This document shows positions 1,583 to 24,834 of a DNA stretch of 64,000 bases, in pieces. The translations under genes were made by a program, and so were the position numbers. The notes under the pieces were generated by a model. The model saw nothing but the letters and a program-made list of their open reading frames with translations, did not search any database and was not told where the DNA came from. How positions within the stretch are numbered: position 1 is the first letter of the stretch; each line of letters begins with the position of its first letter. The DNA lies in contig NZ_QQTY01000003.1 in NCBI RefSeq assembly GCF_003670115.1, positions 186,001-250,000 of the forward strand. Direction: 5' to 3'. This DNA comes from Natronorubrum halophilum. Lineage in GTDB: Archaea; Halobacteriota; Halobacteria; Halobacteriales; Natrialbaceae.

Positions 1583-2551
1583 ATGAACGGAACTGCTCGC
1601 GGCGGAGGCGTCCGTACCATGAATGAGGAGTCACTGAAGTCACCGGGCACGTGGCGGCGTATCGTAACTAGTGACGCCGACCTGTCGAAAAAGCAGCGCA
1701 ACACGGTGATCGCGTGGGCCGCGCTTGCGCCGGTCCTGCTGTGGCTGTTGGTGTTCAAGTATCTCGCGCTCGGCTGGAACATCGTCCTGACGTTCTTCGA
1801 CCGAAGCTACACCGGCGAAATGTCGTTCGTCGGGTTGGAAAACTGGTCGATGTTGATGCAGGATCCGGTGTTTCCGACGGCGCTACGGAACACCATTATC
1901 CTCTTCGCGACGATCCCCGTCGGCATCGCGCTGGCGCTGTTCATCGCGATCCTGCTCAACCAGAAATTTCCGGGATCGAAGGTATTCCGCTCGGTGTTTT
2001 TCCTCCCGTACATCACCATGATGGTCGCGATCGCGGTCATCTGGCAGTATATGTTCCACACCGAGCAAGGGGTGATCAACCAGATGCTGTTGAACGTCGG
2101 CCTGATCGACACACAGATCAGTTGGCTGGGAGACAGCGGGTGGGCCATCGTTTCGGTATTCATGGTTCAGGTCTGGAAGACGACCGGGTTCTACGTCATC
2201 ATTATTCTGGCCGGTCTCCAGACTATCCCCCAGCAGGTGTACGAGGTGTCTCGGATCGACGGTGCCAGCCGTTGGCAGCAGTTCCGGTACCTCACCCTGC
2301 CGCTGTTGAAGCCGACGCTCGGCGTCTGTATGCTGGTCGGCGTGGTCATTTCGTTCCGCCTGTTCGACCTGATCAACGTGATGACGGGCGGCGGCCCGGG
2401 GAATTCGACGGAAATTTTGCTAACCTGGATCTACCAGCAGATGTTCGCGTACGGTGACTTCGGGTACGGCGCGGTCCTCAGTACGATCATGGTCGTCGCC
2501 ACGGTTCTCGTGGCGTATATCGGCCTCAAACTCCAGCAGGTGAGCTACTAA
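1583..2551 (+). CDS. ABC sugar transporter permease, MalF/UgpA type
   Basis: Integral membrane subunit of a carbohydrate importer (CUT1 class). The 322-residue protein has a soluble N-terminal tail and about six hydrophobic segments. The cytoplasmic EAA loop that docks the ATPase is clear: EVSRIDGAS then YLTLPLL. ATG at 1583 is used; ATG at 1619 (MNEESLKSPG) is an equally good start. The stop codon overlaps the start of the second permease (2551), indicating translational coupling. No ATP-binding subunit is encoded in this cluster, so an ATPase from elsewhere must energise it. Confidence 0.92.
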   Translation: MNGTARGGGVRTMNEESLKSPGTWRRIVTSDADLSKKQRNTVIAWAALAPVLLWLLVFKYLALGWNIVLTFFDRSYTGEMSFVGLENWSMLMQDPVFPTALRNTIILFATIPVGIALALFIAILLNQKFPGSKVFRSVFFLPYITMMVAIAVIWQYMFHTEQGVINQMLLNVGLIDTQISWLGDSGWAIVSVFMVQVWKTTGFYVIIILAGLQTIPQQVYEVSRIDGASRWQQFRYLTLPLLKPTLGVCMLVGVVISFRLFDLINVMTGGGPGNSTEILLTWIYQQMFAYGDFGYGAVLSTIMVVATVLVAYIGLKLQQVSY

Positions 2552-3444
2552 TGAGTGGAATCAACGAATTCGCTACGATAGACGATACCCGTAGGGTCGT
2601 TCGACGGATAACCTCGGAAAGCAAACTGACGTTGCTCCGTAAGGGAGGACTGTTCACCGTCGCGCTGATCGCGGCCGTCCTGTTCGCCTTCCCGTTCTAC
2701 TGGCTGATCCGGATCGCCGGCGTTTGGCCGAGCGGGTCACTGTACGGTTCGGCGCCGTCGCTGATCATCAGCGACCTGAACCTGTACAACTTCGTCCGGG
2801 TCTACTACGCCATCCCGTTCGTCCAGTACACGACCAACAGCGTGATCGTGTCCGCGATAGCGGTCGTTAGCCAGCTGATTTTCTGCTCGCTAGCCGCCTA
2901 CGGACTCTCGATGAGCTTCTACGGGAAGAAGTACGTCATGGGATTCATCGTCGTGGCGATGATGGTCCCGTTCCAGACCATCTTCCTCACCGACTACTTG
3001 ATCACCCGCCAACTGGGGCTGATCAACACCTACACGGGGCTGGCGATCGTCGTCGCAGTGAGCGTCGTCAACATCCTCGTGTTGAAGAGCGCGTTCGAGG
3101 CAGTGCCCGACTCGATGGTCGACGCCGCACGGCTCGACGGCGCGTCCGAACTGTACATCCTCTTCGGCGTCTATTGGCCGCTCTCAAAGGCGGCGCTGTC
3201 GACGACCGTCATCCTCTCGTTCGTGTTCTCGTGGAACAGCTACCTGTGGCCGCTGCTGATCGCGACGGAGGACAGCACCACCACGCTGCCGCTGGCTCTC
3301 GCAACGTTCCAGTCCCAGATGGGTGGGAACTTCGCGTTGCAGTACGCCTTCACCATCATGGTGTTGCTGCCGGTCCTGGTCCTGTTTTTCCTGCTACAGA
3401 AGTACTTCATCCGCAGTGCGGTCATGAGCAGTCTCAAGACGTGA
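2551..3444 (+). CDS. ABC sugar transporter permease, MalG/UgpE type
   Basis: Second membrane subunit of the CUT1 importer, 297 residues, about six transmembrane segments. The EAA loop reads DAARLDGAS then VYWPLSK. Its ATG overlaps the stop of the upstream permease by one base and it is followed 7 bp later by a small membrane-anchored protein, so the genes form one operon. The neighbouring NagZ, GH20 and NamZ genes suggest that the substrate is an amino sugar or small muropeptide-derived saccharide; this is inference from context. Confidence 0.92.
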   Translation: MSGINEFATIDDTRRVVRRITSESKLTLLRKGGLFTVALIAAVLFAFPFYWLIRIAGVWPSGSLYGSAPSLIISDLNLYNFVRVYYAIPFVQYTTNSVIVSAIAVVSQLIFCSLAAYGLSMSFYGKKYVMGFIVVAMMVPFQTIFLTDYLITRQLGLINTYTGLAIVVAVSVVNILVLKSAFEAVPDSMVDAARLDGASELYILFGVYWPLSKAALSTTVILSFVFSWNSYLWPLLIATEDSTTTLPLALATFQSQMGGNFALQYAFTIMVLLPVLVLFFLLQKYFIRSAVMSSLKT

Positions 3445-3451
3445 TTCACCA

Positions 3452-3853
3452 ATGAACTTACCACCACTCCTGAAACTGGCCGCGGAAACGGTCTCGGTTC
3501 GGCGTCTCCTGATCAACCGATTCACGATCCTGATCGCGGTCGTGCTGGTCGCATCGGTTGCCGCACAGGGGTACGTCGCAGCGAACAACGACGGATACGT
3601 CACCGGTCGGGTCGTCGACGGCGACGGCGATCCGGTCGCGAACGCTAACGTGACGCTCTCGCCCCAGACGGTCGCCGGCGTCCCCGATCCCCAGTCCACG
3701 ACGACCGACGAGAACGGTGCGTTCGAGTTCCGAGATCAGAGCCTCCTGGAGTTCACAATCCGGGCTGAACACGAAGAGAGCGAGAGCGAAACCCACCGTT
3801 ATCACCTCTATTTCAAAGGGCAGAACAAGGAGGTGAACCTGGTGATCGAGTAA
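3452..3853 (+). CDS. Membrane-anchored carboxypeptidase-regulatory-like domain protein
   Basis: A 133-residue protein with one N-terminal transmembrane segment (about residues 23-43, FTILIAVVLVASVAAQGYVA). A predicted beta-sandwich follows, with the pattern of carboxypeptidase regulatory-like domains: GYVTGRVVDGDGDPVANANVTL, then TTTDENGAFEFRDQ. Such domains are extracellular modules for protein or polysaccharide contact. It lies between the second permease (7-bp gap) and the binding-protein gene, an unusual insertion in a CUT1 operon. It may be an accessory surface subunit of the importer. Catalytic residues are absent, so an enzymatic role is unlikely. Confidence 0.75.
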   Translation: MNLPPLLKLAAETVSVRRLLINRFTILIAVVLVASVAAQGYVAANNDGYVTGRVVDGDGDPVANANVTLSPQTVAGVPDPQSTTTDENGAFEFRDQSLLEFTIRAEHEESESETHRYHLYFKGQNKEVNLVIE

Positions 3854-4000
3854 CCGCCAGTAGATCGTTATTCAGAACGCGATCAATGACGGCTCGGCGC
3901 CGGTCGAAGTGTACGGCGAATACGACGCGTGTCGACCGGAATTATCGATCGCACTGGTTCGTGCCCCCCAGGTGGCCCCGATACCCGCCAAATAGACAGT

Positions 4001-4015
4001 AGATATATATAATAG
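4001..4015 (+). promoter_or_regulatory. TATA box of the binding-protein gene
   Basis: The run AGATATATATAATAG lies about 20-30 bp before the ATG at 4035 in an otherwise GC-rich spacer (3854-4034). This fits an archaeal TATA box driving a leaderless transcript, so the abundant binding protein probably has its own promoter besides the permease operon. Confidence 0.6.
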
Positions 4016-4034
4016 AAGGTACTTGTCGAAAACG

Positions 4035-5354
4035 ATGGTACGGGAAAGCATACCGACGGGTAGTCGACGGAACTATCTGAAAGGCATCGCAGCTGGCACA
4101 GCTGCCGGTCTCGCCGGATGTCTCGGCGGAGACGACGGAGCGTCCGATTCGATCGAACTGTACACGTGGAATCTTCCGTTCTGGGAGGAGACGATCGAGG
4201 AGGAGATCATCCCTACCTTCGAGGACGAGTTCGGGGACGAGTACGACGGCCTCGAGGCCGACTGGATCGACCGCGGGCCAGCAACGGAGGACATCATCTC
4301 GTTCTTCCAGTCGCGACTCCAGGGCGGCGATCCGCCGAGCATCTTCGACACGCAGTTCGGCGCGTACGCACGGTACGCCGAGGAAGACGTATTCGCCGAC
4401 ATCGAGGAGTTGGCGGACGACGAGGTCCTCGAGAAGTACGACGAAACGGCGCTCGACCTGAACCGGTACGACGGGACGTTGTACCAGATGCCGTTCTACA
4501 TGGGGACGAACATGACCGCCTGTAACTCGGAGTGGTTCGACGAAGCGGGTATCGACCCACCGACGTTCGAGGAACCGTGGACGACCACCGAGTACCTCGA
4601 TGCGGCGGAGCAGCTCGTTCAGAACTCCGGAGCGGAGTTCGGGCTCACGTTCATCCGGTTCGACTTCCTGCTGTGGCCCTGGTTCCAGGCGGAAGGTATC
4701 GACGTACTCAACGACGACAATAGCGAAGCGACGTTTAACACATCGGCGACGGTCGAACTACTCGAACGCTTCCAGCAGTTGACCAGCGACGGCGTGATAC
4801 CCGAAGTCACCTGGACAGGCGAGTGGGACCCTCAGGCGGAACAGTTTGGCTCCGGAAACACCGGGATGTACTTCGGGTCGGGATCGGCGCTGCGCCTGAT
4901 CCAAAACTTCGGTGAGGACTGGGTGGGTGAGGACACGTTAGACATCGCCCACGCCCCTGAAGGCGGCGGGCTGTTCACGTTCCACGGGCTCGGAATCACG
5001 ACCCCCGGTAAGAGCGAGACCGAACAGCAGGCGGCGTTCGATTTCACATCGGTCATCCTCAACAAGGAGTTCCAGAAGGACTTCCTGCGAAACACGACCG
5101 TACTCGTTCCTCATACGGAGGCGCTGACTGAACTGCAAAACGACGAGGAGTTTCAGTCGAACAACCCGCTGCTCGTGCAGTTGTATGAGATGTACGACGT
5201 CGTCTCCGAAGATCTCTGGCGTCCGCCGGTGATTCCGCAGGCTACCCAGGTCGCAGAAATCATCGCTTCGGAGTTCTCGTCCGCCGCGCTCGGGGAGAAA
5301 GATCCTCAAGCCGCGGTCGACGAAGCAGAGTCACGCGTCAACAATGCGCTGTAG
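4035..5354 (+). CDS. ABC sugar transporter substrate-binding protein (Tat lipoprotein)
   Basis: Extracellular solute-binding protein, family 1 (MalE/UgpB-like), 439 residues. The N-terminus has a Tat motif (SRRNYLKG) and a lipobox (LAGC), so it is exported folded and lipid-anchored. The mature part starts with the typical ELYTWNLPFWEE strand and has the Trp/Phe-rich binding region (LLWPWFQAEG) and C-terminal helix of the family. ATG at 4035 is used rather than an in-frame TTG at 4023, because of TATA spacing. It pairs with the permeases at 1583 and 2551. Neighbouring hydrolases suggest N-acetylglucosamine or muropeptide sugars as ligands. Confidence 0.92.
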   Translation: MVRESIPTGSRRNYLKGIAAGTAAGLAGCLGGDDGASDSIELYTWNLPFWEETIEEEIIPTFEDEFGDEYDGLEADWIDRGPATEDIISFFQSRLQGGDPPSIFDTQFGAYARYAEEDVFADIEELADDEVLEKYDETALDLNRYDGTLYQMPFYMGTNMTACNSEWFDEAGIDPPTFEEPWTTTEYLDAAEQLVQNSGAEFGLTFIRFDFLLWPWFQAEGIDVLNDDNSEATFNTSATVELLERFQQLTSDGVIPEVTWTGEWDPQAEQFGSGNTGMYFGSGSALRLIQNFGEDWVGEDTLDIAHAPEGGGLFTFHGLGITTPGKSETEQQAAFDFTSVILNKEFQKDFLRNTTVLVPHTEALTELQNDEEFQSNNPLLVQLYEMYDVVSEDLWRPPVIPQATQVAEIIASEFSSAALGEKDPQAAVDEAESRVNNAL

Positions 5355-5624
5355 TGGCGGTCGTTGATCGGGGCAACCGGCGCCCTTTTCGAACGGCTGC
5401 GGACGGACCGCACGAGTACCGGCAGGGTAGCCGTCCACTCCGCTAACCGGCTACGACAGTTCTGACCCTTCCGGTTCGAAGGCGTTACTGAGCACCGCTA
5501 CTCGTGTCTCTGAACCTACTTCTCTACACTGTGAAGTTGTTCGAATTCACACCTCGTTTGATAACCTTTTCGAGCATACTGATGTGGAGAAAGAATTTTA
5601 ACCATTTGCGATGAGTTTGTGACT

Positions 5625-7493
5625 ATGGCGTCAGATAACACTACTGAAGCGGACAGCACGAGCAGCGACTCGAACACCGAACGGTCCACTCGATCAACCA
5701 CCCGTCGGCGATTCGTCCGGACGACGGGCGTGCTCGGCGGTGGCGCGGTGGCTCCGGGGCTCATCTCGGAGACGGTGCAGTCACGGTCGACAGGAAAGGG
5801 GAGCGCGCAGTCGTCTGTCGATGACGTGGTAGCCGGTCTCTCCGACCGCCAGAAGATCGGTCAGATGGTGATGGCGCTGATGAATCCGACCGACGACGGG
5901 GAGCCATCGTCGAGAGCCGAGGACGTGGTGAAAGATCTCGAGGTCGGATCCGCGATGGTCGAACACGTCGGTACGCCCGAGAAAACCGCCGAGTTCAACA
6001 ACCAACTCCAGTGCTGGGCGTCGGAAACGGAGGCGGAACTTCCACTTCTCGTTGGGGCGGACTTCGAGTTCGGCGCTGCCCACAGCGTCGGTGATCTCCG
6101 GGACGATCTGACGACGCAGTTCCCGCGAAACATGAACCTTGGCGCACTCGGGTCCGAACGGGCGGCCGCCGACGCGGCGGGTATCACCGCGACGGAAGCG
6201 CGTTCGATGGGCTATCAGTGGGGATTCGCCCCGGTCGCCGACGTGAACACGAATCCGGAGAATCCGGTGATCGGTATCCGGGCGTTCAGCGGCGACACCG
6301 ACCGCACGTCGAGGCTCACAGCCGCGCAGATACCGGGTTTCCAGAGCAAGGGGAACGGAATCGTCGCCACTGCGAAGCACTTTCCGGGCCACGGGGACAC
6401 GCACGCGGACTCCCATACCGGCCTCCCCACAGTGTCCTACACTCGAGAGACGCTCGAGGAGGTCCACTTGCCACCGTTCCGAGCGGCCATCGACGCGGGG
6501 ATCGACGCGATCATGACCGCCCACATCGTCGTCGAGGCGATCGATCCCGAGCGCCCGGCGACGCTCTCCGAGCCCGTGCTGACCGGCCTCCTCCGCGACG
6601 AACTCGGATTCGACGGACTCCTCGTCACGGACTCGATGTCGATGCAGGCGATCACGGACATCTGGGGGCAACAGCAGGCCGCCGTCCTCGCCGCGAAGGC
6701 CGGCGCGGACGTCATCATGTCGATGGGGGGGTACGAGGACCACGCCGCTACCGTCGACGCGCTGTACGACGCCGTCCAGACCGGCGAACTATCGATGGAG
6801 CGCGTCGAGGAGGCGGCGACCCGCGTGCTCGAAGTGAAACAGAAATACGGCCTGTTGACGCCCGGCGGTGGTCGACCCAGCGGCCGAATCTACGCCAACC
6901 CCGTACGGGCGACTCACAGAACCGGCAAAGCTCCGGACCGCAGACGCGCCGCGGAGATCGCCCGCGGGTCGATGACGCTCGTGAAAAACGACGGCGTCCT
7001 CCCGTTTGACGCGACGAACGGCGAGACCACGCTCGTCGCGGGCGTCGCGCAGGTCGACGTCCTCGCGGATGCCGTACGCGAGCGCTCCGAGGGAGACGTG
7101 GTCGCCTGGCAGTCGAGTCAGTGGCAGGACGACGACCCCACCGAGGAGGAGATCGACGAAGTGACGGCGCTCGCCGAAGAGGCGGATCGCGCGCTCGTCG
7201 CGACGTATTCGGCGTCCGAACTCCCCGACGGGCAGGCGGAGCTCGTCGACTCGGTCCGGGAGACCGGGACACCTACAGCCGCGGTGTCGGTCGGTCTTCC
7301 CTATGATATCGCGTCGTATCCGGACGTCGACGCCTACCTCGCGTCATACGCGCTCGACCGATGGAAGCAGCTAAACGTGTCGTCGCTGGAAGCGACCGCC
7401 GAGGTCGTCTTCGGCGCTGAGCCGAAGGGAACGCTTCCCGTCGAGATCGAGGGACACTATCCGCTGGATCACGGACTGGGGTACGAGGAGTAA
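5625..7493 (+). CDS. nagZ: NagZ-type GH3 beta-N-acetylglucosaminidase, Tat-exported
   Basis: Predicted to release terminal beta-linked N-acetylglucosamine, for example from GlcNAc-MurNAc (muropeptide) or chitooligosaccharides. The 622-residue protein has a Tat signal (RRRF at 27-30, hydrophobic stretch to about 47), so it acts outside the membrane. The NagZ signature is complete: KHFPGHGDT (251-259) followed by D262 and H264, the family's His-Asp acid/base pair, and D336 in VTDSMSM as nucleophile. A C-terminal second domain (about 420-620) makes it the two-domain form seen in Bacillus NagZ. ATG at 5625 is chosen over GTG at 5619. One base separates it from the next gene. Presence of NamZ nearby points to peptidoglycan rather than chitin alone. 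Confidence 0.9.
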   Translation: MASDNTTEADSTSSDSNTERSTRSTTRRRFVRTTGVLGGGAVAPGLISETVQSRSTGKGSAQSSVDDVVAGLSDRQKIGQMVMALMNPTDDGEPSSRAEDVVKDLEVGSAMVEHVGTPEKTAEFNNQLQCWASETEAELPLLVGADFEFGAAHSVGDLRDDLTTQFPRNMNLGALGSERAAADAAGITATEARSMGYQWGFAPVADVNTNPENPVIGIRAFSGDTDRTSRLTAAQIPGFQSKGNGIVATAKHFPGHGDTHADSHTGLPTVSYTRETLEEVHLPPFRAAIDAGIDAIMTAHIVVEAIDPERPATLSEPVLTGLLRDELGFDGLLVTDSMSMQAITDIWGQQQAAVLAAKAGADVIMSMGGYEDHAATVDALYDAVQTGELSMERVEEAATRVLEVKQKYGLLTPGGGRPSGRIYANPVRATHRTGKAPDRRRAAEIARGSMTLVKNDGVLPFDATNGETTLVAGVAQVDVLADAVRERSEGDVVAWQSSQWQDDDPTEEEIDEVTALAEEADRALVATYSASELPDGQAELVDSVRETGTPTAAVSVGLPYDIASYPDVDAYLASYALDRWKQLNVSSLEATAEVVFGAEPKGTLPVEIEGHYPLDHGLGYEE

Positions 7494-7494
7494 C

Positions 7495-8403
7495 ATGCCG
7501 TCAGAGAGTGCGACGGGAACTCGAACGCGGCGGAGTGCGCTATCGTTGCTCGGCGCCGGTGGATTCGGCCTGCTATCCGGGTCGTTCGCGGGTAGCGCGT
7601 CGGGCGAGCCGCGGGCACCCGACCGCGAGCTAACGGCGATGAGCTACAACATCTATCACGGGACCGGCTCGGACGGTCAGCTGGACCTCGAGCGAACGGC
7701 GCGCGTGATCCGGGAATCCGGAGCCGAGATCGTCGGACTGCAGGAAGTCGACGTCCACTGGGGCGACCGCTCTGACTTCAGGGATCAGGCGAAGCTACTG
7801 GCGAAAACCCTGGGGCTGAACTACTTCTTCGCCCCGATCTACGAGTTGGATCCTCCCGAAAGCGGCCGGCCTCGACGCGAGTACGGGCTCGCGGTACTGA
7901 GCGAATATCCGATCCAGCACTCGGAGAACCACGAGATCACTCGCCTGTCGCCGCTGCTCGGTCCGGAACCGCAGCTGGCGCCCGGCTTCCCCGAGATCAG
8001 GGTGAACGTTCGAGGGGTGAGCGTCTCGTTCTACGCGACGCACCTGGATTACAGGGGCGATCCGGCCGTACGCGAGATGCAGGTCGACGAGATGCTGGAG
8101 ATCGTAGACGCGGATCGCGGACCGACGCTTCTCGTGGGCGATCTGAACGCGCCGCCCGGTGCGCAGGAACTGAGCGCGCTCTGGGACGAGTTCGACGACG
8201 CGTGGGACGTACAAAACGAGGACCCGGGGTACACGTTCCCGGCGGAAAATCCCACCAAGCGGATCGACTACGTGTTGACGTCTCCGACCGTAGCAACCGA
8301 CTCGGTCGAAGTCGTCGAGACGCTCGCTTCCGATCACCGTCCGGTGGTCGCGAAACTGTCGCTTCCCGGTTCCGCCGTGGGTCGGAGGAGTTCACGGGAG
8401 TAG
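7495..8403 (+). CDS. Tat-exported endonuclease/exonuclease/phosphatase-fold hydrolase
   Basis: Metal-dependent phosphodiesterase or phosphatase of the EEP (DNase I/sphingomyelinase) fold, 302 residues. A Tat signal is visible (TRRSALSLLGAGGFG). Family residues are all present: N52 (SYNIYHG), E84 (LQEVD), H183 (ATHLDYRG), D216 and N218 (VGDLNAP), and D280-H281 (SDHRPV). It starts one base after nagZ stops, so the two are almost certainly co-translated and co-exported. Possible substrates are phosphodiesters attached to cell envelopes (teichoic-acid-like polymers, phospholipids) or extracellular DNA; the sequence cannot decide. Confidence 0.85.
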   Translation: MPSESATGTRTRRSALSLLGAGGFGLLSGSFAGSASGEPRAPDRELTAMSYNIYHGTGSDGQLDLERTARVIRESGAEIVGLQEVDVHWGDRSDFRDQAKLLAKTLGLNYFFAPIYELDPPESGRPRREYGLAVLSEYPIQHSENHEITRLSPLLGPEPQLAPGFPEIRVNVRGVSVSFYATHLDYRGDPAVREMQVDEMLEIVDADRGPTLLVGDLNAPPGAQELSALWDEFDDAWDVQNEDPGYTFPAENPTKRIDYVLTSPTVATDSVEVVETLASDHRPVVAKLSLPGSAVGRRSSRE

Positions 8404-8501
8404 GCGGGCACTCCTGGTGTTGGCGAGCGGACTCCACCTCCCGTACGGCTATTCGAGCCCGCGACGGCTACGAAACCGAGAACGGTTCGTCGCGGGATCG
8501 G

Positions 8502-10049
8502 TCAGGACCAGGGCACCTGCGGCGACTCGTAGTAGTTGACGTCCTGTACGTCCCAGCGCGGCCCCTGCGTAGCCAACCGCTGCCTGAACGGCTCCCAGGC
8601 CGTTCTCGACTCGGGCGACCAGCCGAGCTCGGCGACGGCCGGCATCCGCGGGAAGAGCATGAACTCGATGTCCTCGAGCGTCTCTACCGTTTCCGACCAC
8701 AGCGCCGTTTCGGGACCTTTCACGGACGACTCGTCCACACCCTCGAGGAATCCCCCGGGGTCCCAGCGATAGGCGTCCTCGACCGTCGTCAGTCCCGCCC
8801 AATCGAGTCCCAGCTCGGTATCCTCGGTATATTTCATGTCGAGGTACGCGCGGCTGGCGGGAGAGGCGACGAGTTCGATCCCGTTTTGCGCCGCTTCGGC
8901 GACGTCCGGTGCCTCTCGACCCGGGTACCAGTACTGCGAGACGGTCGACTCCGGCGGGTCGGCGGCCAGTATCTGGTGCCATCCCACGGGCCGCTTGTCG
9001 TACTTCTCTACGATGGCGACGGCTTGGTCCATGAACTGGTCGTAATCTTCCTCGGTCGTCTGGTGGGCCTCGTCGCCGCCGATGTGGATGTGCGGACCGG
9101 GCGTCATCTCGGCCACTTCCCGGATAACGTCGTCGATGAACTCGTAGGTGACCGGCTTGTCGACGCAGAGCGAACTGAACCCGACTTCGATGCCCGTGTA
9201 GGGGTCCTCACGCTCGCCGTCGCAGTTGAGTTCGGCGTACGACGCCAGGGCCGCGTTGGTGTGGCCCGGCATGTCGATCTCGGGGATTACGGTGATGAAC
9301 CGGTCCTGTGCGTACTCGACGAGCTCTTCGTACTCTGATCGCGTATAATAGCCGCCAGGCCTGCCGCCGACTTCGGTACTGCCACCGATCTCCGTCAGCT
9401 TCGGCCAGCTCTCGATCTCGATGCGCCACCCCTGGTCGTCGGTGAGGTGCAGGTGCAGGTGGTTCAGCTTGTACTGAGCGAGGTAATCGATGTACTGCTT
9501 GACGTCCTCGACCGGGAAGAAGTGCCGCGCGACGTCGAGGTGCGCTCCCCGGTAGGAAAACCGCGGATAGTCGAGGACGTGTCCGCCCGGAACCGTCCAG
9601 GGTCCCGCTTGCTTCGTGTCGCTCTCCACCGACGGCGGCAGCAGCTGGCGCAGCGTTTGCACCCCGGCAAAGAGGCCGGCCGCTTCGTTGGCGCGGATCG
9701 TCACACCGCGAGTGGTGACGTTCAGCCGATATCCTTCGTCCCCGACCTTCGAGGGCGCTCCGCGGAGTAACAACGAGACGCCGCCATCCGGACCCCTCGA
9801 GGGTGCATCAACGACGGGCAGCTCGTACCCGGTCGCCGGGCGAAGGAGTCCGGCCAGGTAGTCGGCGACACCCGTTGCTGCCTCCGAATCGACGTGTATC
9901 GTCGTGTCGGCCGTGATCGCGTACTCGTTTCCGGTCGATTTGGACTCGACCGGGACCGGAACCACGCCCTGCATTCTGTCCGATGCGTCGGCATCGGACG
10001 GCCCGCCGTTCGCAGTATCACCTTCGACTCCGGTGGTCCCTGCCACCAA
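8502..10049 (-). CDS. GH20 beta-N-acetylhexosaminidase, signal peptide in another frame
   Basis: Substrate-assisted exo-hexosaminidase cleaving terminal beta-GlcNAc/GalNAc. The in-frame start is a poor TTG at 10049 (515 residues). Numbering from it: an N-terminal GH20b-like domain (about 40-155), then the TIM barrel with LHLTDDQGWR (200-209), PEIDMPGH (256-263) and the catalytic pair D326-E327 in HIGGDEAH. The natural start is probably ATG at 10111, in another frame, which encodes a Tat signal; one missing base near 10053 separates them (see that feature). Convergent with the EEP gene and divergent from NamZ. It belongs to the same hexosaminidase set. Confidence 0.88.
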   Translation of the reverse strand: MVAGTTGVEGDTANGGPSDADASDRMQGVVPVPVESKSTGNEYAITADTTIHVDSEAATGVADYLAGLLRPATGYELPVVDAPSRGPDGGVSLLLRGAPSKVGDEGYRLNVTTRGVTIRANEAAGLFAGVQTLRQLLPPSVESDTKQAGPWTVPGGHVLDYPRFSYRGAHLDVARHFFPVEDVKQYIDYLAQYKLNHLHLHLTDDQGWRIEIESWPKLTEIGGSTEVGGRPGGYYTRSEYEELVEYAQDRFITVIPEIDMPGHTNAALASYAELNCDGEREDPYTGIEVGFSSLCVDKPVTYEFIDDVIREVAEMTPGPHIHIGGDEAHQTTEEDYDQFMDQAVAIVEKYDKRPVGWHQILAADPPESTVSQYWYPGREAPDVAEAAQNGIELVASPASRAYLDMKYTEDTELGLDWAGLTTVEDAYRWDPGGFLEGVDESSVKGPETALWSETVETLEDIEFMLFPRMPAVAELGWSPESRTAWEPFRQRLATQGPRWDVQDVNYYESPQVPWS

Positions 10050-10111
10050 CAGCCGGTGGCCGCCATCGATCGAAGCACGCTTCGCCGTTCAAGTATGTCA
10101 TCGTCAGGCAT
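10050..10111 (-). other. Out-of-frame Tat signal start of the GH20 gene (probable -1 frameshift)
   Basis: ATG at 10111 opens the frame MPDDDILERRSVLRSMAATG, a Tat signal n-region, which then runs into CWWQG. The downstream GH20 frame reads LLVAGTTGVEG at the same point. Adding one C to the GGCTG near 10050-10054 (minus strand) joins them into a normal Tat signal, ...SMAATG-LLVAGTTGVEG. The span 8502-10111 is 1610 nt, one short of a multiple of three, as expected for a single lost base. It could be a real inactivating mutation or a sequencing error. Confidence 0.7.
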
Positions 10112-10396
10112 ACCACCGTACGATACCGTTTTGACTATCATATAATTATTCGATGGAAACTTAGTAATGAGTTTCTGGGTTATGTAAAAACGAAGAGGGT
10201 GTCTCTGCCGAATTAACCGGAGTGACGACACGGGACCCGAAGCGCTATCCCGCTACCCGAGCGCTCTCCTGAAAATCGGACGTCGCACGCGACTACGATA
10301 ACAGATCCTCGAAGTTCGCGGTGGGTATGAGACCGAACGGCCGTACAGTGTCCTCCTCGGCTGCGAAGCGGTCACCAGCGATTCGACGTGGGAAAC

Positions 10397-10404
10397 ACTT
10401 ATAG
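10397..10404 (+). promoter_or_regulatory. TATA-like box for the NamZ-type gene
   Basis: ACTTATAG lies about 23-30 bp before the ATG at 10427, fitting a leaderless archaeal promoter. The 315-bp divergent spacer (10112-10426) also holds an AT-rich stretch at about 10135-10155 (ATAATTATTCG) positioned to serve the GH20 gene on the minus strand. Confidence 0.5.
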
Positions 10405-10426
10405 ACACAAACCCTGAACTTCAGGT

Positions 10427-11812
10427 ATGGTGTCAGATGACACGATAGCGGCGACCAGTGCGAACAGCGTCGAATCAACGCCCGCGACGAGACGCGGATG
10501 GCTCCAGGCGACCGCAGCCGGGACGCTCGGCGCCCTGCTCGGACTGGGCGGGCAAGGAACCGCGGCGGCCGTCGAAACCGGAGGAGAAGGTCCACCGGAA
10601 TGGGTCACGCCGCCAACCGAACTCGGTATCGAGACGTTACTCTACGAGCGAGCCGATCTCCTCGAGGGCGAACGGTTGGGGTTGATCACCAATCCGTCCG
10701 GGGTCGACAGTTCGCTGACGCCGACGATCGACCTCCTGTACGAAGACGAGGCGTTCGACCTTCGAAAGCTCTTCAGTCCCGAACACGGCATCCGGGGCAA
10801 CGCCGAAGCCGGCGAGGGTGTCGGCGACACGGTGGATGAGAAGACGGGATTACCGGTTCTCAGCCTCTACGGCGACACCCGGCAGCTACAGCCGGAGATG
10901 ATCGAGGATCTGGACGCCGTGCTCTTCGACATCCAGGACGTGGGCGTCCGGTTCTACACGTACATCTACGACATCGCCCGTTCGCTGGAAACGATCGGTG
11001 ACACCGACAAGCGATTCGTCGTGCTCGATCGTCCGAACCCCATCGCGCCGCTCTCGGTAACGGGGAGCCGGATCGACGACGAGAACGCCACGGGAATCGG
11101 GGACTACCGGCTGCCGATAATCCACGGGATGACGGTCGGAGAGATCGCGCGCTACTTCAACGACGAGTTCGACATGGGCGCAGACCTCGAGGTCGTCCAG
11201 ATGCGGGGATGGAACCGAGAGATGTGGTACGACGAGACCGAACTTCCCTTCGTTCCGCCGTCGCCGAACATGCCGACGACGGAAACGGCGGCCATCTATC
11301 CGGGAATGGTGTACTTCGAAGCAGCTACCCTCTCCGAGGGGCGGGGAACGACGAAACCGTTCGAGTACGTCGGCGCTCCGTGGATCGACGGTCAGGAGTG
11401 GGCCGAGGCCCTGAACGAACTCGACCTCCCCGGCGTTCGATTCCGACCGGTCTGGTTCGAACCGACGTTCGACGACCACGAAGGGGAGAACGTGGGCGGC
11501 GTCCAGACCCACGTGATCGATCGGTCGCACTTCCAACCCGTTCGAGTCGGTCTATCGATGCTCGTCTCCGCGTTCCTCACGTATCCCGAGAGCGACTGGA
11601 TCTCGTGGGGCGATACGTACGCCATCGACAGCCGGGCCAACGGAAGCGAACTTCGGGAGACCATCGACGCGGCGGATCCCGGTACGGATCCGGTAGCACT
11701 CGCGGACCAGATCCGAAGCGACTGGGAGACTGACATCGACGAGTTCCGATCCGTTAGAGAGCCGCACCTCCTGTACGACGACCGCTGGCGGGGCCGTCGC
11801 AAGGGCAACTAG
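10427..11812 (+). CDS. namZ: DUF1343/GH171 NamZ-type exo-beta-N-acetylmuramidase, Tat-exported
   Basis: DUF1343 proteins include Bacillus subtilis NamZ (YbbC), which removes terminal N-acetylmuramic acid from peptidoglycan chains. This 461-residue copy is complete. It has a Tat signal (TRRGWLQATA, 21-30, hydrophobic to about 48) and the family blocks LFSPEHGIRG (115-124), LFDIQDVG (166-173), DRPNP (201-205), PPSPNMP (277-283) and SEGRGTT (303-309). Export suits digestion of external polymer. Together with NagZ and GH20 it could dismantle the GlcNAc-MurNAc backbone from its ends. Haloarchaea do not make MurNAc, so the substrate is presumably bacterial. Exact specificity is untested. Confidence 0.88.
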   Translation: MVSDDTIAATSANSVESTPATRRGWLQATAAGTLGALLGLGGQGTAAAVETGGEGPPEWVTPPTELGIETLLYERADLLEGERLGLITNPSGVDSSLTPTIDLLYEDEAFDLRKLFSPEHGIRGNAEAGEGVGDTVDEKTGLPVLSLYGDTRQLQPEMIEDLDAVLFDIQDVGVRFYTYIYDIARSLETIGDTDKRFVVLDRPNPIAPLSVTGSRIDDENATGIGDYRLPIIHGMTVGEIARYFNDEFDMGADLEVVQMRGWNREMWYDETELPFVPPSPNMPTTETAAIYPGMVYFEAATLSEGRGTTKPFEYVGAPWIDGQEWAEALNELDLPGVRFRPVWFEPTFDDHEGENVGGVQTHVIDRSHFQPVRVGLSMLVSAFLTYPESDWISWGDTYAIDSRANGSELRETIDAADPGTDPVALADQIRSDWETDIDEFRSVREPHLLYDDRWRGRRKGN

Positions 11813-13591: not shown

Positions 13592-14344
13592 ATGACAAAA
13601 TCATCGAATCGATCGGTCGAACGCGCTTTCGCGGTCGTCGACGAACTCGCAGAAAACGGTGGTGGACGAGTCTCGGATCTCGCAGACCGTCTCGACATGC
13701 CGGTGAGTACGGTCCACGACTACCTCCAGGCGCTGGTCGAAACGGGGTACGTCAGCGTGGACGAAAACGAGTACCAGACGACAACGCGGTTTCTGGAGGT
13801 TGGTAACCGAGAGCGTCATCGGCTCGAGATCTTCAAGGCGGTCCGTGACGAACTCGAGACCGTCGCCGAGGAGACCGACGAACACGCGACGCTGATGATC
13901 GAAGAGGACGATCAAGCGGTGATTCTCGCCGTTCAGGAGGGGACGGACGCAGTCAACCTGTTCGCGTATCCGGGCGCTCGAATGCCGTTGCACGCGACGG
14001 CGCCGGGGAAAGCGATGCTCGCCCACATGCCCGACGCCCGTGTTTCGGAAATCATCGATCGACACGGTCTCGTCGCGGTGACCTCCCGGACGATCACCGA
14101 TCCCGACGTGCTGTACGAACAGCTCGAGCGGATTCGCCAGCAAGGGTACGCGATCGACGAAGGAGAACGAATTGCGGGGATGGTCTGTATCGCAGCGCCG
14201 GTCCTCGACAAGAGCAATCAGATACGCGGTGCGATCTGCGTCTGCGGGCCGCGGAGCCGGATCGACGAGACGCGCCGGAAAGATATCGCTACCGTCGCCC
14301 AGCGAGCAGCGAACGTCACCCAGGTGAACCTGGATTACGTGTGA
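13592..14344 (+). CDS. IclR family transcriptional regulator
   Basis: A 250-residue regulator with an N-terminal winged helix-turn-helix (about residues 8-65, SVERAFAVVDELAENGGG to STVHDYLQALVETGYV) and a C-terminal IclR effector domain (about 75-245, with LHATAPGKAMLAHM and GMVCIAAPVLDK). ATG at 13592 is used; GTG at 13571 is upstream in frame. It is convergent with the LLM oxidoreductase and stands at the head of the acyl-CoA metabolism region, which it might control. No operator could be assigned. Confidence 0.9.
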   Translation: MTKSSNRSVERAFAVVDELAENGGGRVSDLADRLDMPVSTVHDYLQALVETGYVSVDENEYQTTTRFLEVGNRERHRLEIFKAVRDELETVAEETDEHATLMIEEDDQAVILAVQEGTDAVNLFAYPGARMPLHATAPGKAMLAHMPDARVSEIIDRHGLVAVTSRTITDPDVLYEQLERIRQQGYAIDEGERIAGMVCIAAPVLDKSNQIRGAICVCGPRSRIDETRRKDIATVAQRAANVTQVNLDYV

Positions 14345-14410
14345 GTTGCCCGCCGTCGCCACTGTCGATGCGTTGGTACGGGTCGATTTCGAATCCGGAA
14401 CTGGGGGAAA

Positions 14411-15394
14411 TTACGAGTCCGAGACCGGGGCAAGCGCCTCGATCGTCCCCTCGGCTAACTCGTCGGCGGCTTGCTCCGGAATCGTCAACAGCGGCCGGTC
14501 GATGGCGGTCTCGGAGACGATCTCACGGAGTTGTTCGCGCGCCGCTTCCGGCGTACCCGCGACTCCGAGTTCGTGGACCATCTCGTCCGTCACGAGGCCG
14601 GCGGCCTCCCCGCGATCACCCGCTCGCCACGCCTCGGCGATGCGTTCGGCCCGGTCGGGAAAGCGCATTCCGACGGCGTTTTGATACCCCTTCGCGCTGC
14701 CGGCGTAGTACGCGATGTGACCGCGGACGGCGTCGAACGCCTCGTCCGGATCGTCGCTGACTGCCGCAGGAACGTACGGGGCGATCGTAATGTCGCTCGG
14801 ATCGCGGTCCGCCTCGAGAGCCGCCCGCTCGACGACGTCGAACGCGTCCTCGAGTTCGGAAAACGGGATATTGTGTGGCATCCAGCCGTCGCAAAGTCGT
14901 CCAACGACGCGGCGATTCGCCGGGCCGAGCGCCGCGTGATAGATCGGTACGTCCCTGTTCACCGGCGGAACGCCATCGACGTGGATCAGTTCGCCGTCGT
15001 AGTCGACCGGTTCATCGCCCGTCAGCATTGCTTTGACTACCTTGATGGTCTCGTGAGAGCGACGGACGGGTTGTTCGAACGCCATACCGTGGACGTTTTC
15101 GACGGCCGTCTGCGTGCTCGTTCCGACGCCGAAGGATGTGCGGCCGTCCGAAACGCGATCGAGCGTCGCCGCGGTCATCGCGAGCACGGCGGGCGTCCTC
15201 GAGAAAACGTTTACGATAGCGGTCCCGATCTCGACGTCATCGGTCACCGCGGCGATCTCCGAGAGCTTGACGACGGAGCTCGTCCCCCACAGCTCGCCTA
15301 ACCAGACGGAATCGTACCCCTGTTCTTCCGCCTCGATCGCGAGATCAGTCGGGTCGTGCGCGCCGGTCCGCGGAATTACCAGTCCGAGATGCAT
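14411..15394 (-). CDS. LLM class (luciferase-like) flavin/F420-dependent oxidoreductase
   Basis: Single-domain TIM-barrel oxidoreductase of the luciferase-like monooxygenase class, 327 residues; in haloarchaea many such enzymes use coenzyme F420. The start MHLGLVIPRTG and blocks GYDSVWLGELWG, EIGTAIVNVFSRTP and RTSFGVGTST are typical, as is the C-terminal helical insertion. The 3' end lies 66 bp from the end of the convergent IclR gene. The enoyl-CoA hydratase gene at 15446-16231 lies 51 bp upstream on the same strand. The substrate is unknown, perhaps an acyl-CoA or terpenoid intermediate given the neighbours. Confidence 0.88.
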   Translation of the reverse strand: MHLGLVIPRTGAHDPTDLAIEAEEQGYDSVWLGELWGTSSVVKLSEIAAVTDDVEIGTAIVNVFSRTPAVLAMTAATLDRVSDGRTSFGVGTSTQTAVENVHGMAFEQPVRRSHETIKVVKAMLTGDEPVDYDGELIHVDGVPPVNRDVPIYHAALGPANRRVVGRLCDGWMPHNIPFSELEDAFDVVERAALEADRDPSDITIAPYVPAAVSDDPDEAFDAVRGHIAYYAGSAKGYQNAVGMRFPDRAERIAEAWRAGDRGEAAGLVTDEMVHELGVAGTPEAAREQLREIVSETAIDRPLLTIPEQAADELAEGTIEALAPVSDS

Positions 15395-15445
15395 GTCGTG
15401 CTCTTTGCGGTTCGGTGTGATAAATCATTCCGCGACGGTGATTCG

Positions 15446-16231
15446 TTAGCGGCCGACGAAGTCGGGATCTCCGTCACCGAAGAACGCCTCGAGGCCCCGT
15501 TCGTAGTCTTCAGTGTGGGTTGCTCCGGCGATGGCGTCCACCTCCGCAGCCAGCTGTGACTCGAGGCTTCGGTCGTAGCTCTCGGTCAGCAAGCGGGTGG
15601 CAGTACCGAGCGCGTGCGTCGGTCCGGACGCGAGGTCGGCGGCGACCGCATCGAGTCGGTCATCGAACTCGTTTTCGGGGGCGACCTCGCTTGCGAGCCC
15701 CATCTCGACGGCCTCCTCGGGAGCGATCGCTTCGTCTCGAAGGACGATCTCTTTTGCAGTTCGGAGCCCGACGAGCCGCGGGAGGAAGAACGTCGAGCCG
15801 CCGTCGCCGGTCAGACCGATGCCCGGATAGGCGAACTTGAGGACCGCGTCCTCGCCGAGCACGACCAGATCGGGCATCAGCGCGAGACTGAAGCCGATCC
15901 CAGCGGCGACGCCGTTAACGCCGCCGACGACCGGCGTGTCGGTCCGATGGAACTGGACGATCGCCTCGTGGGCCCGTCCGGCAAGCTCCCGAAGGATCGG
16001 TGCATCCGACTCGTCGCCGGAAAACTGGGAGAGGTCAGCGCCGGCACCGAAGAAATCGCCGGCGTGGGTGAGAACGATACACCGAACGTCCGACTCTTCG
16101 CCCAACGTCGTGGCGACCGAAACCAGTTCGTTAGCCATCTCGAGGGAGAGTGCGTTTCGGCCGGCCGTGCTCTCGAGCGTCACCGTCGCGACGCCGTCAT
16201 CGTGTTCGACGGACAGATTGTCGTAGTCCAT
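15446..16231 (-). CDS. Enoyl-CoA hydratase/isomerase family protein
   Basis: Crotonase-fold enzyme of 261 residues, predicted to hydrate 2-enoyl-CoA in beta-oxidation. Start MDYDNLSVEHDDGVATVTLES. It shows the CoA-binding/oxyanion blocks HAGDFFGAGADLSQF and NGVAAGIGFSLALMPDLVV; the second hydratase glutamate falls in the GLTGDGGSTFFLPRLVG region, where G/D replace the usual E, so isomerase or other crotonase chemistry is possible. Upstream (16232-16515) is a 284-bp spacer with a GTGACATCCTCCCGC motif at 16308. Confidence 0.88.
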   Translation of the reverse strand: MDYDNLSVEHDDGVATVTLESTAGRNALSLEMANELVSVATTLGEESDVRCIVLTHAGDFFGAGADLSQFSGDESDAPILRELAGRAHEAIVQFHRTDTPVVGGVNGVAAGIGFSLALMPDLVVLGEDAVLKFAYPGIGLTGDGGSTFFLPRLVGLRTAKEIVLRDEAIAPEEAVEMGLASEVAPENEFDDRLDAVAADLASGPTHALGTATRLLTESYDRSLESQLAAEVDAIAGATHTEDYERGLEAFFGDGDPDFVGR

Positions 16232-16515
16232 ATGCGCTATCGGTTCGTGACGGGGTTGGATAACTGTTATCGTCGCTGTAGGCGGCTCCTGACCGATCCG
16301 TGCCACTGTGACATCCTCCCGCCGTAATCGGAGCGGAAGCAACGCTCCCTCACGCGGTCGAGCGGAGGCCGACGACTGCGGGGCTTCCAGCGACAGCGGG
16401 ATTCCGGCTATGGCGGAGGTTTCAGTCCGAGTACGCCGCGAGCGTCATCTATGGGGGGGTTCCCGTTCGTCTCGGAATCACACACTTTAGTAGGTCCCTC
16501 ACGAATAGTATCGTC

Positions 16516-17691
16516 ATGGAGCTCACAGACGAACAAGAACTCATCCAAAACACGGTTCAGGAGTTCGTCGCGAACGAAGTCGCGGTCGACGTCGACGAGG
16601 CCGACGCAAATCAGGCGTTCCCGGAAGACGTCTGGGACGGACTCGCGGAACTCGACCTCACCGGGCTGACGGTTCCGGAAGAGTACGGCGGGCTCGACGT
16701 CGACATGCTCACCTACAGCATCGTCAACGAGGAGCTCGCGTACGGTCACCTCGCGGTCGCCACGGCGCTGTCGGTCCACTGTCTCGCCACGTCGTGTATC
16801 CGCCAATTTGGCTCCGAGGCCCACAAAGAGAAGTGGCTCCCGGAGATGGTCTCCGGTCGCCCGGTCGGCGCGTTCGCGCTCTCGGAGCCCGGCGCCGGAT
16901 CGAACCCCGCCGAGATGACGACGGAAGCGCGCCTCGACTCCGCCGGGGAATCTTCGGCTGCTCCTCGAGAAGTCGAGGCGTCTCGAGAGGACGGCGAGTA
17001 CGTAATCAACGGGAAGAAACAGTGGATCACGAACGGCGAGCGTGCGGGTGTCGTCATCCTGTTCGCCAAAACGGGTCGAGACGATCCAGACAGCGTCACC
17101 CAGTTCCTGGTCCCGAAAGACGTCGAGGGCCTCGAGATCGGCAAGAAGGAGGACAAACTCGGCTTGCGAGCGAGCGACACGACGACGCTCATCTTCGACG
17201 ACGTTCGTATTCCGGCCGAGAACCGTCTGACCGAGGTCGGGCGGGGACTGAAGGCCGCGTTCTCGATCCTGACCGGCGGGCGAGTCGCCATCGCGAGTCA
17301 GGCGGTCGGGGTCGCGCAGGCAGCGTTCGACGACTCGGTCGCGTACGCGAACGATCGCGAGCAGTTCGGGAAGCCGATCATCGAACATCAGGCGATCGGC
17401 CACAAGCTCGCCGATATGCAGACCGACGTGCAGGCGAGCCGCCTGCTCACCCGAGACGCCGCCCGAAAGAACGAGGACGGCGTCGATCCCGTGTCGGCGG
17501 CTATGGCGAAGTACTTCGCCAGCGAGGCGGCGGTCGACGTGGCGAACGAGGCCGTCCAGATTCACGGCGGCTACGGCTACACGAAGGATTTCGACGTCGA
17601 GCGCTACTACCGCGACGCCAAGATCACGACGATTTACGAGGGGACATCCGAGATTCAGAAAAAGATCATCGCTCGCGACCTGACGCGATAG
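16516..17691 (+). CDS. Acyl-CoA dehydrogenase
   Basis: FAD-dependent acyl-CoA dehydrogenase, 391 residues, oxidising acyl-CoA to 2-enoyl-CoA and passing electrons to electron-transfer flavoprotein. Typical blocks are ALSEPGAGSNPAEM, KKQWITNG, LGLRASDTTTL, IHGGYGYTKDF and the C-terminal YEGTSEIQ. An Asp/Ser/Ala/Glu-rich insertion (RLDSAGESSAAPREVEASRE) interrupts the loop just before YVINGKKQW; a similar one occurs in the paralogue at 26053. Co-oriented genes start only at 18725, so it is probably monocistronic. Confidence 0.93.
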   Translation: MELTDEQELIQNTVQEFVANEVAVDVDEADANQAFPEDVWDGLAELDLTGLTVPEEYGGLDVDMLTYSIVNEELAYGHLAVATALSVHCLATSCIRQFGSEAHKEKWLPEMVSGRPVGAFALSEPGAGSNPAEMTTEARLDSAGESSAAPREVEASREDGEYVINGKKQWITNGERAGVVILFAKTGRDDPDSVTQFLVPKDVEGLEIGKKEDKLGLRASDTTTLIFDDVRIPAENRLTEVGRGLKAAFSILTGGRVAIASQAVGVAQAAFDDSVAYANDREQFGKPIIEHQAIGHKLADMQTDVQASRLLTRDAARKNEDGVDPVSAAMAKYFASEAAVDVANEAVQIHGGYGYTKDFDVERYYRDAKITTIYEGTSEIQKKIIARDLTR

Positions 17692-17746
17692 CGGGGTCCG
17701 AATAGCGATTCGCGTAGCCGAGTAGTACTCGAGGGGCGAAATCGAG

Positions 17747-18604
17747 CTAGTCGTACTCGTAAAAGCCCGAACCGGTCTTCTTCCCGAGGTCGCCCGCCTC
17801 CACCTTGCGCTTGAGGAGGTAGGCCGGCTTGTACCGATCGCCGAGTTCCTCGTGGAGCGTTTCGGAGGCGTGCAGACAGATGTCGAGTCCAATGTGGTCG
17901 GCCAACGTGAGCGGCCCCATCGGAACGTTCGTCCCGAGTTCCATTCCCGCGTCGATATCTTCTTTCGTGGCGACGCCCTCGTCGAACGCCCGGATCCCCT
18001 CGTTGATCCACGGCATGAGGATGCGGTTCGTGACGAATCCGGGCTTGTCGTCCGACTCCCAGGTCGTCTTCTCGAGATCCTCGGCGAACTCGTGTGCCAG
18101 ATCGACGACGTCCGGATCCGTGTTCTCGCCGACGACGACCTCGACGCCTTTCATCACGGGAACTGGGTTCATGAAGTGGAGCCCGACAACCGACCCCGGT
18201 CGTTCGGTCGCGCTGGCGATCGACGTGATCGAGAGCGTGCTCGTGTTCGTCGCCAAGACGGCATCGTCGTCCGCGATATCGTCGAGGTCCTCGAAGATGT
18301 CGCGTTTCACCTCGAGGTTCTCCAACGCCGCTTCGACGATGACGTCGCAGTTCGCGAGGTCGTCGAGATCGGTCGTCCCGGTAATCCGCTCACGAACCTG
18401 CTCAGCGTCGTCCTCTGAGAGCGTCTCGTTCGAGACGAGTCGCCCGAGACTGTCGTCGATCGATTCGAAGCCGGTCTCGACGTACTCCTGTTCGATGTCC
18501 CGCATCACGACGTCGTAGCCGTGCGTAGCGGCGACCTGTGCGATACCGCTGCCCATCGTGCCCGCGCCGACGACCCCGACGCGGTTGATCGTCTCTCCGT
18601 CCAT
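17747..18604 (-). CDS. 3-hydroxyacyl-CoA (3-hydroxybutyryl-CoA) dehydrogenase
   Basis: NAD-dependent enzyme of beta-oxidation or butyryl-CoA metabolism, 285 residues, the usual size of monofunctional HbdA/FadB-type enzymes. Rossmann motif GAGTMGSGIAQ near the N-terminus, ENLEVKRDIFEDLD in the middle, and the catalytic GLHFMNPVPVMKGVEVV block. The C-terminal domain has DKPGFVTNRILMPWINE. ATG at 18604 is used rather than the GTG one codon earlier. Convergent with the acyl-CoA dehydrogenase and divergent from the thiolase; together these supply consecutive steps. Confidence 0.93.
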   Translation of the reverse strand: MDGETINRVGVVGAGTMGSGIAQVAATHGYDVVMRDIEQEYVETGFESIDDSLGRLVSNETLSEDDAEQVRERITGTTDLDDLANCDVIVEAALENLEVKRDIFEDLDDIADDDAVLATNTSTLSITSIASATERPGSVVGLHFMNPVPVMKGVEVVVGENTDPDVVDLAHEFAEDLEKTTWESDDKPGFVTNRILMPWINEGIRAFDEGVATKEDIDAGMELGTNVPMGPLTLADHIGLDICLHASETLHEELGDRYKPAYLLKRKVEAGDLGKKTGSGFYEYD

Positions 18605-18724
18605 CACCAGTTTCTGGTTCGACGACGATCATAAGTGTGCCGGCTCGACAGGTATCGACGACCGCGTCGTCGAGGTACGTTCGACACATATAACTCGGAC
18701 TGGGTAATAGTGTCGTGGTAGATA

Positions 18725-19894
18725 ATGGCAGAGGCATATATCGGCGGAACAGGGATGACTCCGTTCGGAGCGTTTCCCGATCGGACGGGACGAGAGCTGT
18801 TTGCAGAGGCCGGTCTCGCCGCGATCGAAGACGCCGGACTCACACCCGAGAGCGTCGACGAGGTGTTTTACGGCAACTTCATCGGTACGCTCTCGGAGAA
18901 CCAGGGTCACCAGGGACCGCTCGCCGCCGAGGCGCTCGGAACGACTGCGCCGTCGAGACGGGTCGAGAGCGCGTGCGCCTCGAGCGGACTGGCGATACGC
19001 GACGCCGTTCGCGCCGTACGAACGGGCGACGTCGACGTCGTCGTCGCCGGCGGTATGGAGCGCATGAGCAACATGGGAACGGCCCGCGCGACTGACGGGT
19101 TGGCTCGCGCGGCCGACGACCTCTTCGAAGTGCGAGCCGGCGTCACGTTTCCCGCGGCCTACGCGCTGCTCGCACGGGCGTACTTCGACGCCTTCGGCGG
19201 CGATCGAACCGACCTCGCACACATCGCCGTGAAGAACCACGACAACGCGCTCGTCAACGACCACGCCCACCTCCAACGGGAGATCACGGTCGACGACGTG
19301 CTCGAGGCGCCCGAGATCGCGGCCCCCTTCGGGCTATACGACGCCTGTCCGATCAGCGACGGCGCAGCCGCGGTCGTACTGGTGTCTCCGTCGTACGCAG
19401 CCGAACACGGGCTCGATTCCGGCGTTGCCATCACGGGCTCCGGCCACGGCGGGGATACGATGGCGCTACAGGACCGCCGGTCGCTCTCGAAGACCCCCGC
19501 GACGCGCGACGCCGCCGAAAAGGCGTACGACGACGCGGGAATCGACCCGACCGACGTCGGACTCGCGGAGGTCCACGACTGCTTTACGATCGCGGAGGTG
19601 CTCGCGCTCGAGGGACTCGGCCTCTACCGCTACGGCGAAGCGATCGGTGCGGCCCGCCGCGGCGAGACGCGTCGCGGGGGGACCCTGCCCGTGAATCTCT
19701 CGGGCGGCCTCAAGGCGAAGGGCCACCCCGTCGGCGCGACCGGCGCGGCTCAGGTCGTGGCCGTCCGGACGTTACTCGAGGGGACGCACCCACGATCCGA
19801 CGCCGTCGGCGACGACGTGACCGTCGGCCTCGCACACAACGCCGGCGGGACGGTCGCCAGTGCCACGGTACACGTACTGGAGGTGATGCCGTGA
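18725..19894 (+). CDS. Thiolase domain protein (SCP-x/acetyl-CoA acetyltransferase-like)
   Basis: A 389-residue thiolase of the archaeal type that works with a DUF35 partner. The N-terminal nucleophile Cys lies in VESACASSGLAIRDAV. The C-terminal half has the HDCFTIAEV block and the GGLKAKGHPVGATGAAQ signature. Its last bases overlap the GTG start of the DUF35 gene (19891) by four nucleotides. In archaea such thiolase/DUF35 pairs act in acetoacetyl-CoA formation, sometimes scaffolding HMG-CoA synthase. Neighbours here favour acyl-CoA degradation. Confidence 0.92.
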   Translation: MAEAYIGGTGMTPFGAFPDRTGRELFAEAGLAAIEDAGLTPESVDEVFYGNFIGTLSENQGHQGPLAAEALGTTAPSRRVESACASSGLAIRDAVRAVRTGDVDVVVAGGMERMSNMGTARATDGLARAADDLFEVRAGVTFPAAYALLARAYFDAFGGDRTDLAHIAVKNHDNALVNDHAHLQREITVDDVLEAPEIAAPFGLYDACPISDGAAAVVLVSPSYAAEHGLDSGVAITGSGHGGDTMALQDRRSLSKTPATRDAAEKAYDDAGIDPTDVGLAEVHDCFTIAEVLALEGLGLYRYGEAIGAARRGETRRGGTLPVNLSGGLKAKGHPVGATGAAQVVAVRTLLEGTHPRSDAVGDDVTVGLAHNAGGTVASATVHVLEVMP

Positions 19895-20271: not shown

Positions 20272-20282
20272 CGGTACCGACG

Positions 20283-20699: not shown

Positions 20700-20749
20700 C
20701 CCACTCGGTCAGCAGTAGCTTGAAATCGGTTCGACGAGAACGAACGACC

Positions 20750-21139: not shown

Positions 21140-21166
21140 GCGACCGAATTCAGCCGACGGCGGCGA

Positions 21167-24825: not shown

Positions 24826-24834
24826 GTGAGGCGA

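Follow-up and report, generated by a model that had tools for sequence, protein, structure and literature searches.

The window (the whole stretch of 64,000 nucleotides of Natronorubrum halophilum DNA that was analysed, on contig C3 of its assembly) carries, in this order, genes for two ABC permeases and a binding protein, a GH3 enzyme, a protein of phosphatase/nuclease fold, a GH20 enzyme on the other strand, and NamZ. The permeases, binding protein, GH3, phosphatase-like protein and NamZ exo-N-acetylmuramidase are clustered at 1583-11812, and the hydrolases among them have RR leaders, as read by eye; Pfam gave no match for the ORF at 314-1495. The pairing of GH3 with NamZ suggests use of bacterial cell-wall sugars, and the cluster may possibly serve their salvage in a haloarchaeon. 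The GH20 gene is laid out in two frames, with these features:

10140..10145, minus strand: TATA-like sequence TTATAT, lying about 31 nt upstream of the A in ATG 10111, identified by eye as a putative promoter element
9722..10111, minus strand: peptide of 129 aa as written from ATG 10111, unrelated past the leader (translation)
10052..10111, minus strand: Tat leader n-region, MPDDDILERRSVLRSMAATG (translation; aligns with MSDNDMLERRNVLRSIAAIG of the nearest homologue and with the DNA of five more homologues)
10050..10054, minus strand: frame junction, with a single-base gap against all six aligned homologues (DNA alignment)
8502..10049, minus strand: GH20 beta-N-acetylhexosaminidase coding frame, 515 codons from TTG 10049 (Pfam; chain 1hp4_A)
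9069..9074, minus strand: D-E pair of the HIGGDE motif, intact (alignment to 1hp4)

The frame that opens at ATG 10111 begins as the n-region of a Tat leader and continues as unrelated sequence to its stop at 9722; the enzyme lies in the -1 frame with respect to this one, a frame that TGA 10091 closes on the upstream side and in which TTG 10049 is the first ATG, GTG or TTG codon. At the junction, the leader frame has the codon GGC (10054-10052) and the enzyme frame the codon CTG (10052-10050), and the two frames joined at 10054-10050 read ...ERRSVLRSMAATG followed by LLVAGTTGVEG..., the components of a normal leader. Thus, no single frame of the window's GH20 gene has the RR motif and the hydrophobic region contiguous with the mature protein (Tat assignments, here and below, are an RR motif plus a hydrophobic stretch, read by eye).

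The nearest homologue, 82% identical and encoded by Halobacteriales archaeon YIM A00010 (L003), has MSDNDMLERRNVLRSIAAIGLFSAGTSGVEGN uninterrupted in a single frame, and its leader pairs residue for residue with the window on both sides of the junction, a match that is therefore far from chance. An in-frame RR leader was seen by eye in all eight close haloarchaeal homologues examined, namely that of YIM A00010, four of the same family (L038-L041), and those of Halomicrobium urmianum, Haladaptatus pallidirubidus and Natribaculum longum (L117, L119 and L118, respectively); outside this set lie a ninth haloarchaeal match, on a plasmid (H11, 30% coverage), and ten other plasmid records. When the leader DNA of the window was aligned with that of six haloarchaeal homologues (L040 and L041, which have longer N-termini, being left out), the gap at the junction was a single column found in the window alone among the seven sequences; all other gaps in the leader stretch were of three columns, and only the window's was not a multiple of three. 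The same alignment revealed no start common to the relatives at TTG 10049 or GTG 10046, and a shared downstream start is ruled out by the in-frame leaders of the eight homologues. The sequence-only reading, which had described an n-region in one frame with the hydrophobic part and the enzyme in the next, is confirmed by translation and by the homologues, and would have fallen if relatives had shared the window's sequence and downstream start or if their signal regions had failed to align; the close relatives have neither, and the signal regions do align. Its proposal of a base lost near 10053 agrees with a one-base gap within 10054-10050, the identity and exact position of that base not being fixed by the data. 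A search of genome contigs, plasmids and viral contigs, collections that may omit the window's own genome, found no second isolate of the species, and no relative was found among the viral contigs.

Downstream of the junction, the protein matches Glyco_hydro_20 (PF00728; E 2.6e-88, 297.1 bits) and Glyco_hydro_20b (PF02838; E 1.3e-24, 87.7 bits), and its best solved relative is the beta-N-acetylhexosaminidase chain 1hp4_A (presumably Streptomyces SpHex; E 2.7e-184, residues 26-515). With both domains present, and with the D-E pair of HIGGDE, which we take to be the catalytic pair in GH20, the product is predicted to be a GH20 beta-N-acetylhexosaminidase. At 163 near-invariant columns, the window departs three times, and the ten homologues scored, of 36 aligned, depart one to twelve times; of 35 loci matched, L028, which is partial, and L030-L033 and L036, which are distant, were left out of this alignment and of the tree. 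Apart from the junction no second lesion was found, whether further stops, frame breaks or lost constrained residues, in the 515-codon frame. Divergence from YIM A00010 in GH20 (pN 0.093, pS 0.393) is in line with that in NamZ, the phosphatase-like gene and GH3 (pN 0.088-0.140, pS 0.373-0.414). The earlier description of the gene as otherwise perfect is supported by its long frame, both domains, the HIGGDE motif and the three departures in 163.

Lineage-specific changes are less uniform. Amino-acid changes private to the window and to YIM A00010 number 30:25 in GH20 and 61:127 in the three neighbours pooled (Fisher p 0.004), with different outgroups for the two counts (Natribaculum for GH20, Halosolutus for the neighbours) and silent sites nearly saturated in the GH20 outgroup (dS about 2). 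Such an excess in the window's GH20 would fit some relaxation of selection. Within GH20, amino-acid and third-position changes are 30:51 for the window and 25:55 for YIM A00010 (p 0.51). We read these lineage counts as mixed and as indicating, overall, no clear decay; a decayed pseudogene was rejected on the lack of further stops or frame breaks and the retention of constrained residues, with the lineage counts mixed.

What would be made from the gene as written depends on where translation can begin. Messages of Haloferax volcanii are described as typically leaderless, with AUG strictly required and GUG and UUG non-functional on leaderless messages (PMC3986360). The homologue in YIM A00010 has a TATA-like stretch before its ATG 5932 at about the same spacing as in the window (by eye), and transcription presumably starts just before ATG 10111, as in that relative. 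Ribosomes would then start at ATG 10111, leave the enzyme frame and stop at 9722, and the TTG and GTG behind the junction would be internal to the message, with no obvious signal for initiation, leaving little enzyme made and none exported by Tat. Given the reported requirement for AUG (PMC3986360), the gene as written should yield hardly any enzyme, if any, and instead a short peptide without function. The other genes of the cluster (GH3, NamZ, the phosphatase-like protein and the importer subunits) have no such break and are expected to remain functional.

The 515-codon frame with a possible start at TTG 10049 or GTG 10046 could alternatively encode a functional cytosolic hexosaminidase acting on aminosugar oligomers brought in by the ABC permeases and binding protein of the cluster. 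GH20 proteins that lack a leader do seem to occur in haloarchaea: a distant group, 38-43% identical, appears by eye to have no leader at five loci (L042-L046, the five examined of 16 weaker matches listed, the frame of L045 being open further upstream). Nevertheless, we consider a cytosolic form improbable, for the start is not conserved among relatives and lies some 60 nt into the presumed message, the codons in question are those reported not to function on leaderless messages (PMC3986360), and the flanking GH3, NamZ and phosphatase-like proteins have RR leaders by eye.

Programmed -1 frameshifting or a phase switch, by which one gene would yield both exported and cytosolic (or dead) forms, has a precedent in an archaeal glycosidase, the alpha-L-fucosidase of Sulfolobus (PMC8037382), and the shift needed in the window is likewise -1. 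It is opposed by the sequence around the junction, which contains no canonical in-phase X_XXY_YYZ slippery heptamer in 10111-9722, and no homopolymer of four or more and no unit of 2-4 nt repeated three times in 10111-9990, and by the absence of the two-frame arrangement from all eight relatives. A gene phase-variable by simple repeat is not supported, given the lack of a homopolymer or tandem repeat at the frame break, and a programmed slip was rejected for want of a canonical heptamer and of any relative with the same arrangement. Since there is no canonical slip site or repeat and the downstream start is not conserved, the switch between exported and cytosolic forms that had been suggested from the sequence finds no backing, and devices of this sort are very improbable. 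A rare non-canonical -1 slip that gave a small exported share of hexosaminidase, with most of the product dead or cytosolic, would be a functional device too, and we give it hardly any weight.

There is a substantial chance, somewhat short of even, that the base is missing only from the sequence record and that the organism has an ordinary Tat-exported hexosaminidase. Such an error would account for a remaining gene that is normal and constrained and for the in-frame state of all eight close relatives, and the gap rests on one assembly record. The frequency of frame breaks elsewhere in the assembly bears on this account. The control region, for a window that is on C3, was the initial 800 kb of that genome's contig C1. 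There, about 374 distinct genes (an approximate number, counted by strand and 150-nt bins of gene end) match a coding-like congener ORF in one frame, the match covering no less than 85% of its length with at least 60% identity. Against these stand eight comparisons in which a frame change was flagged (2 + 6), most of which are, in our reading, artefacts of upstream ORF extension or of ORFs antisense to a neighbour gene; one of the eight, C1:302220-303237, is ambiguous on the ORF map. Another of the eight, at C1:147474-149230 (in L065), looks real: the gene has two frames in the window's genome and is one ORF in G009, with a one-frame match to G001.

Among coding-like ORFs, intact and flagged comparisons numbered 334/6 and 98/2 for congeners g1 and g9 against the window's genome, 340/9 and 92/4 for the window's genome against g1 and g9 as targets, and 69/0 and 67/1 for g1 against g9 and g9 against g1; by these counts the window's genome is no worse than its relatives, and an error-rich assembly is not supported. 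Counts made without that restriction were noisy, with spurious frame changes arising from ORFs that were antisense or extended upstream: split genes per orthologues were 3/66 (g9 to own genome), 3/141 (g1 to own), 3/58 (own to g9) and 5/124 (own to g1), and one-frame matches against internal plus N-terminal changes were 64/3+1, 245/10+1, 59/4+1 and 211/11+3 in the same order. Within the window, 17 other genes (seven of the cluster and ten at 13592-25359) match relatives in one frame without a single break, the latter ten in a comparison that used 12 of 14 annotated genes of Haloterrigena turkmenica (L162) and 11 of 14 of Natronorubrum aibiense (L163), with eight and seven matches, respectively, above 55% identity. 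Both of these relatives have a haloacid dehalogenase/symporter block between AMP-binding and mutase genes, at the position of which the window has about 320 bases instead (22801-23125). The rarity of flags, the 17 unbroken genes and the lack of a homopolymer of four or more in 10111-9990 all weigh against an error of the record. Frame breaks are rare here, yet a rate of a few per thousand genes leaves room for either a solitary error or a single genuine lesion.

Our preferred reading, to which we assign a probability of about one in two, is that the Tat leader has been severed from an intact GH20, itself probably gained by horizontal transfer, through a one-base deletion that is private to the window and very recent. 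In its favour are the gap found in the window alone, the lack of a second lesion and the rarity of frame breaks in the assembly, and it has a precedent in the chitinase of Pyrococcus furiosus, where a one-nucleotide insertion was reported to be confirmed by sequencing of the PCR product (PMC3575233). The frame break between the Tat n-region and the enzyme is upheld by the homologues, and of the causes put forward by the sequence-only reading, a very recent change and a sequencing error are both still candidates and the switch is not. A single-base sequence error would fit almost as well as a real lesion, and the absence of other decay, being expected of an error too, weighs against preferring the lesion; we lean slightly towards a real recent loss. 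The best explanation of the arrangement is thus a young loss-of-export lesion and not a regulated device.

The gene occurs in one of ten genomes of the window's genus, its own, and some GH20 match is present in 18 of 125 genomes of the family. One family member (G017:C2:213649-214387; L056 and L057) has a GH20 as two overlapping matches in different frames, perhaps another hexosaminidase frame break. The nearest non-archaeal matches are from Streptomyces (54-59% identical), and phylogenetic analysis placed nine haloarchaeal GH20 sequences on one side of a branch (100/99) from 27 Streptomyces sequences and one from Bacteroidota. This branch would fit transfer from bacteria, a direction that we infer.

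YIM A00010 has GH3, the phosphatase-like gene, GH20 and NamZ in the window's order and relative orientation, and no importer was recognised beside this block, the other ORFs of the locus being unannotated. Halosolutus gelatinilyticus (L116) has the importer, GH3, the phosphatase-like gene and NamZ in one block, in which 81 nt (L116:10752-10832) occupy the interval between the phosphatase-like gene and NamZ that holds GH20 in the window (8404-10426); no GH20 lies between these two genes or is annotated within the 16.2-kb stretch. GH20 was therefore either inserted in the window and YIM A00010 or lost in Halosolutus. A UgpC ATPase gene precedes the permeases of H. gelatinilyticus; the window has no close UgpC match, its sole match being 33% identical (31962-32603). 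A second NamZ-like gene, 46% identical, is located on the same contig as the window (L080; G000:C3:13091-14251). Archaeal peptidoglycan hydrolases have been published (PMC12352652), as have GH20 and GH3 genes of chitin-using haloarchaea (PMC12343721).

For general biology the frame break carries little weight and is an ordinary finding; the surrounding cluster, with its importer, GH3, NamZ and inserted GH20, is of more interest. For annotation, a gene caller that used TTG 10049 would label the enzyme cytosolic even though close relatives have an export leader. If the lesion is real, the strain would be a natural test of whether a haloarchaeal aminosugar cluster needs the export of one hexosaminidase.

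The enzyme itself resembles the bacterial two-domain GH20 proteins of the 1hp4 group, with which it aligns over residues 26-515 and shares HIGGDE; it differs from them in that the haloarchaeal GH20 form a tree group of their own and that its relatives have haloarchaeal-style RR leaders by eye. Like the alpha-L-fucosidase of Sulfolobus, it is an archaeal glycosidase spread over two frames in the -1 sense, but the fucosidase is described as having an A-AAA-AAT heptamer, tandem rare codons and a putative stem-loop (PMC8037382), and the window has no canonical heptamer. One-base lesions in exported glycosidases are already known, and the present case appears to be of the same kind as the P. furiosus chitinase (PF1234/PF1233), if less certain. 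There, too, a one-nucleotide indel affects an archaeal hydrolase of an aminosugar polymer that is highly identical to an intact relative, the catalytic part (PF1233) is left without a signal peptide, and the authors are reported to have left open whether the insertion that splits the gene was "very recent" or reflected "programmed frameshifting" (PMC3575233). Unlike that confirmed insertion, which divides its gene in two, the change in N. halophilum is a base missing inside the signal peptide, as read from the assembly record.
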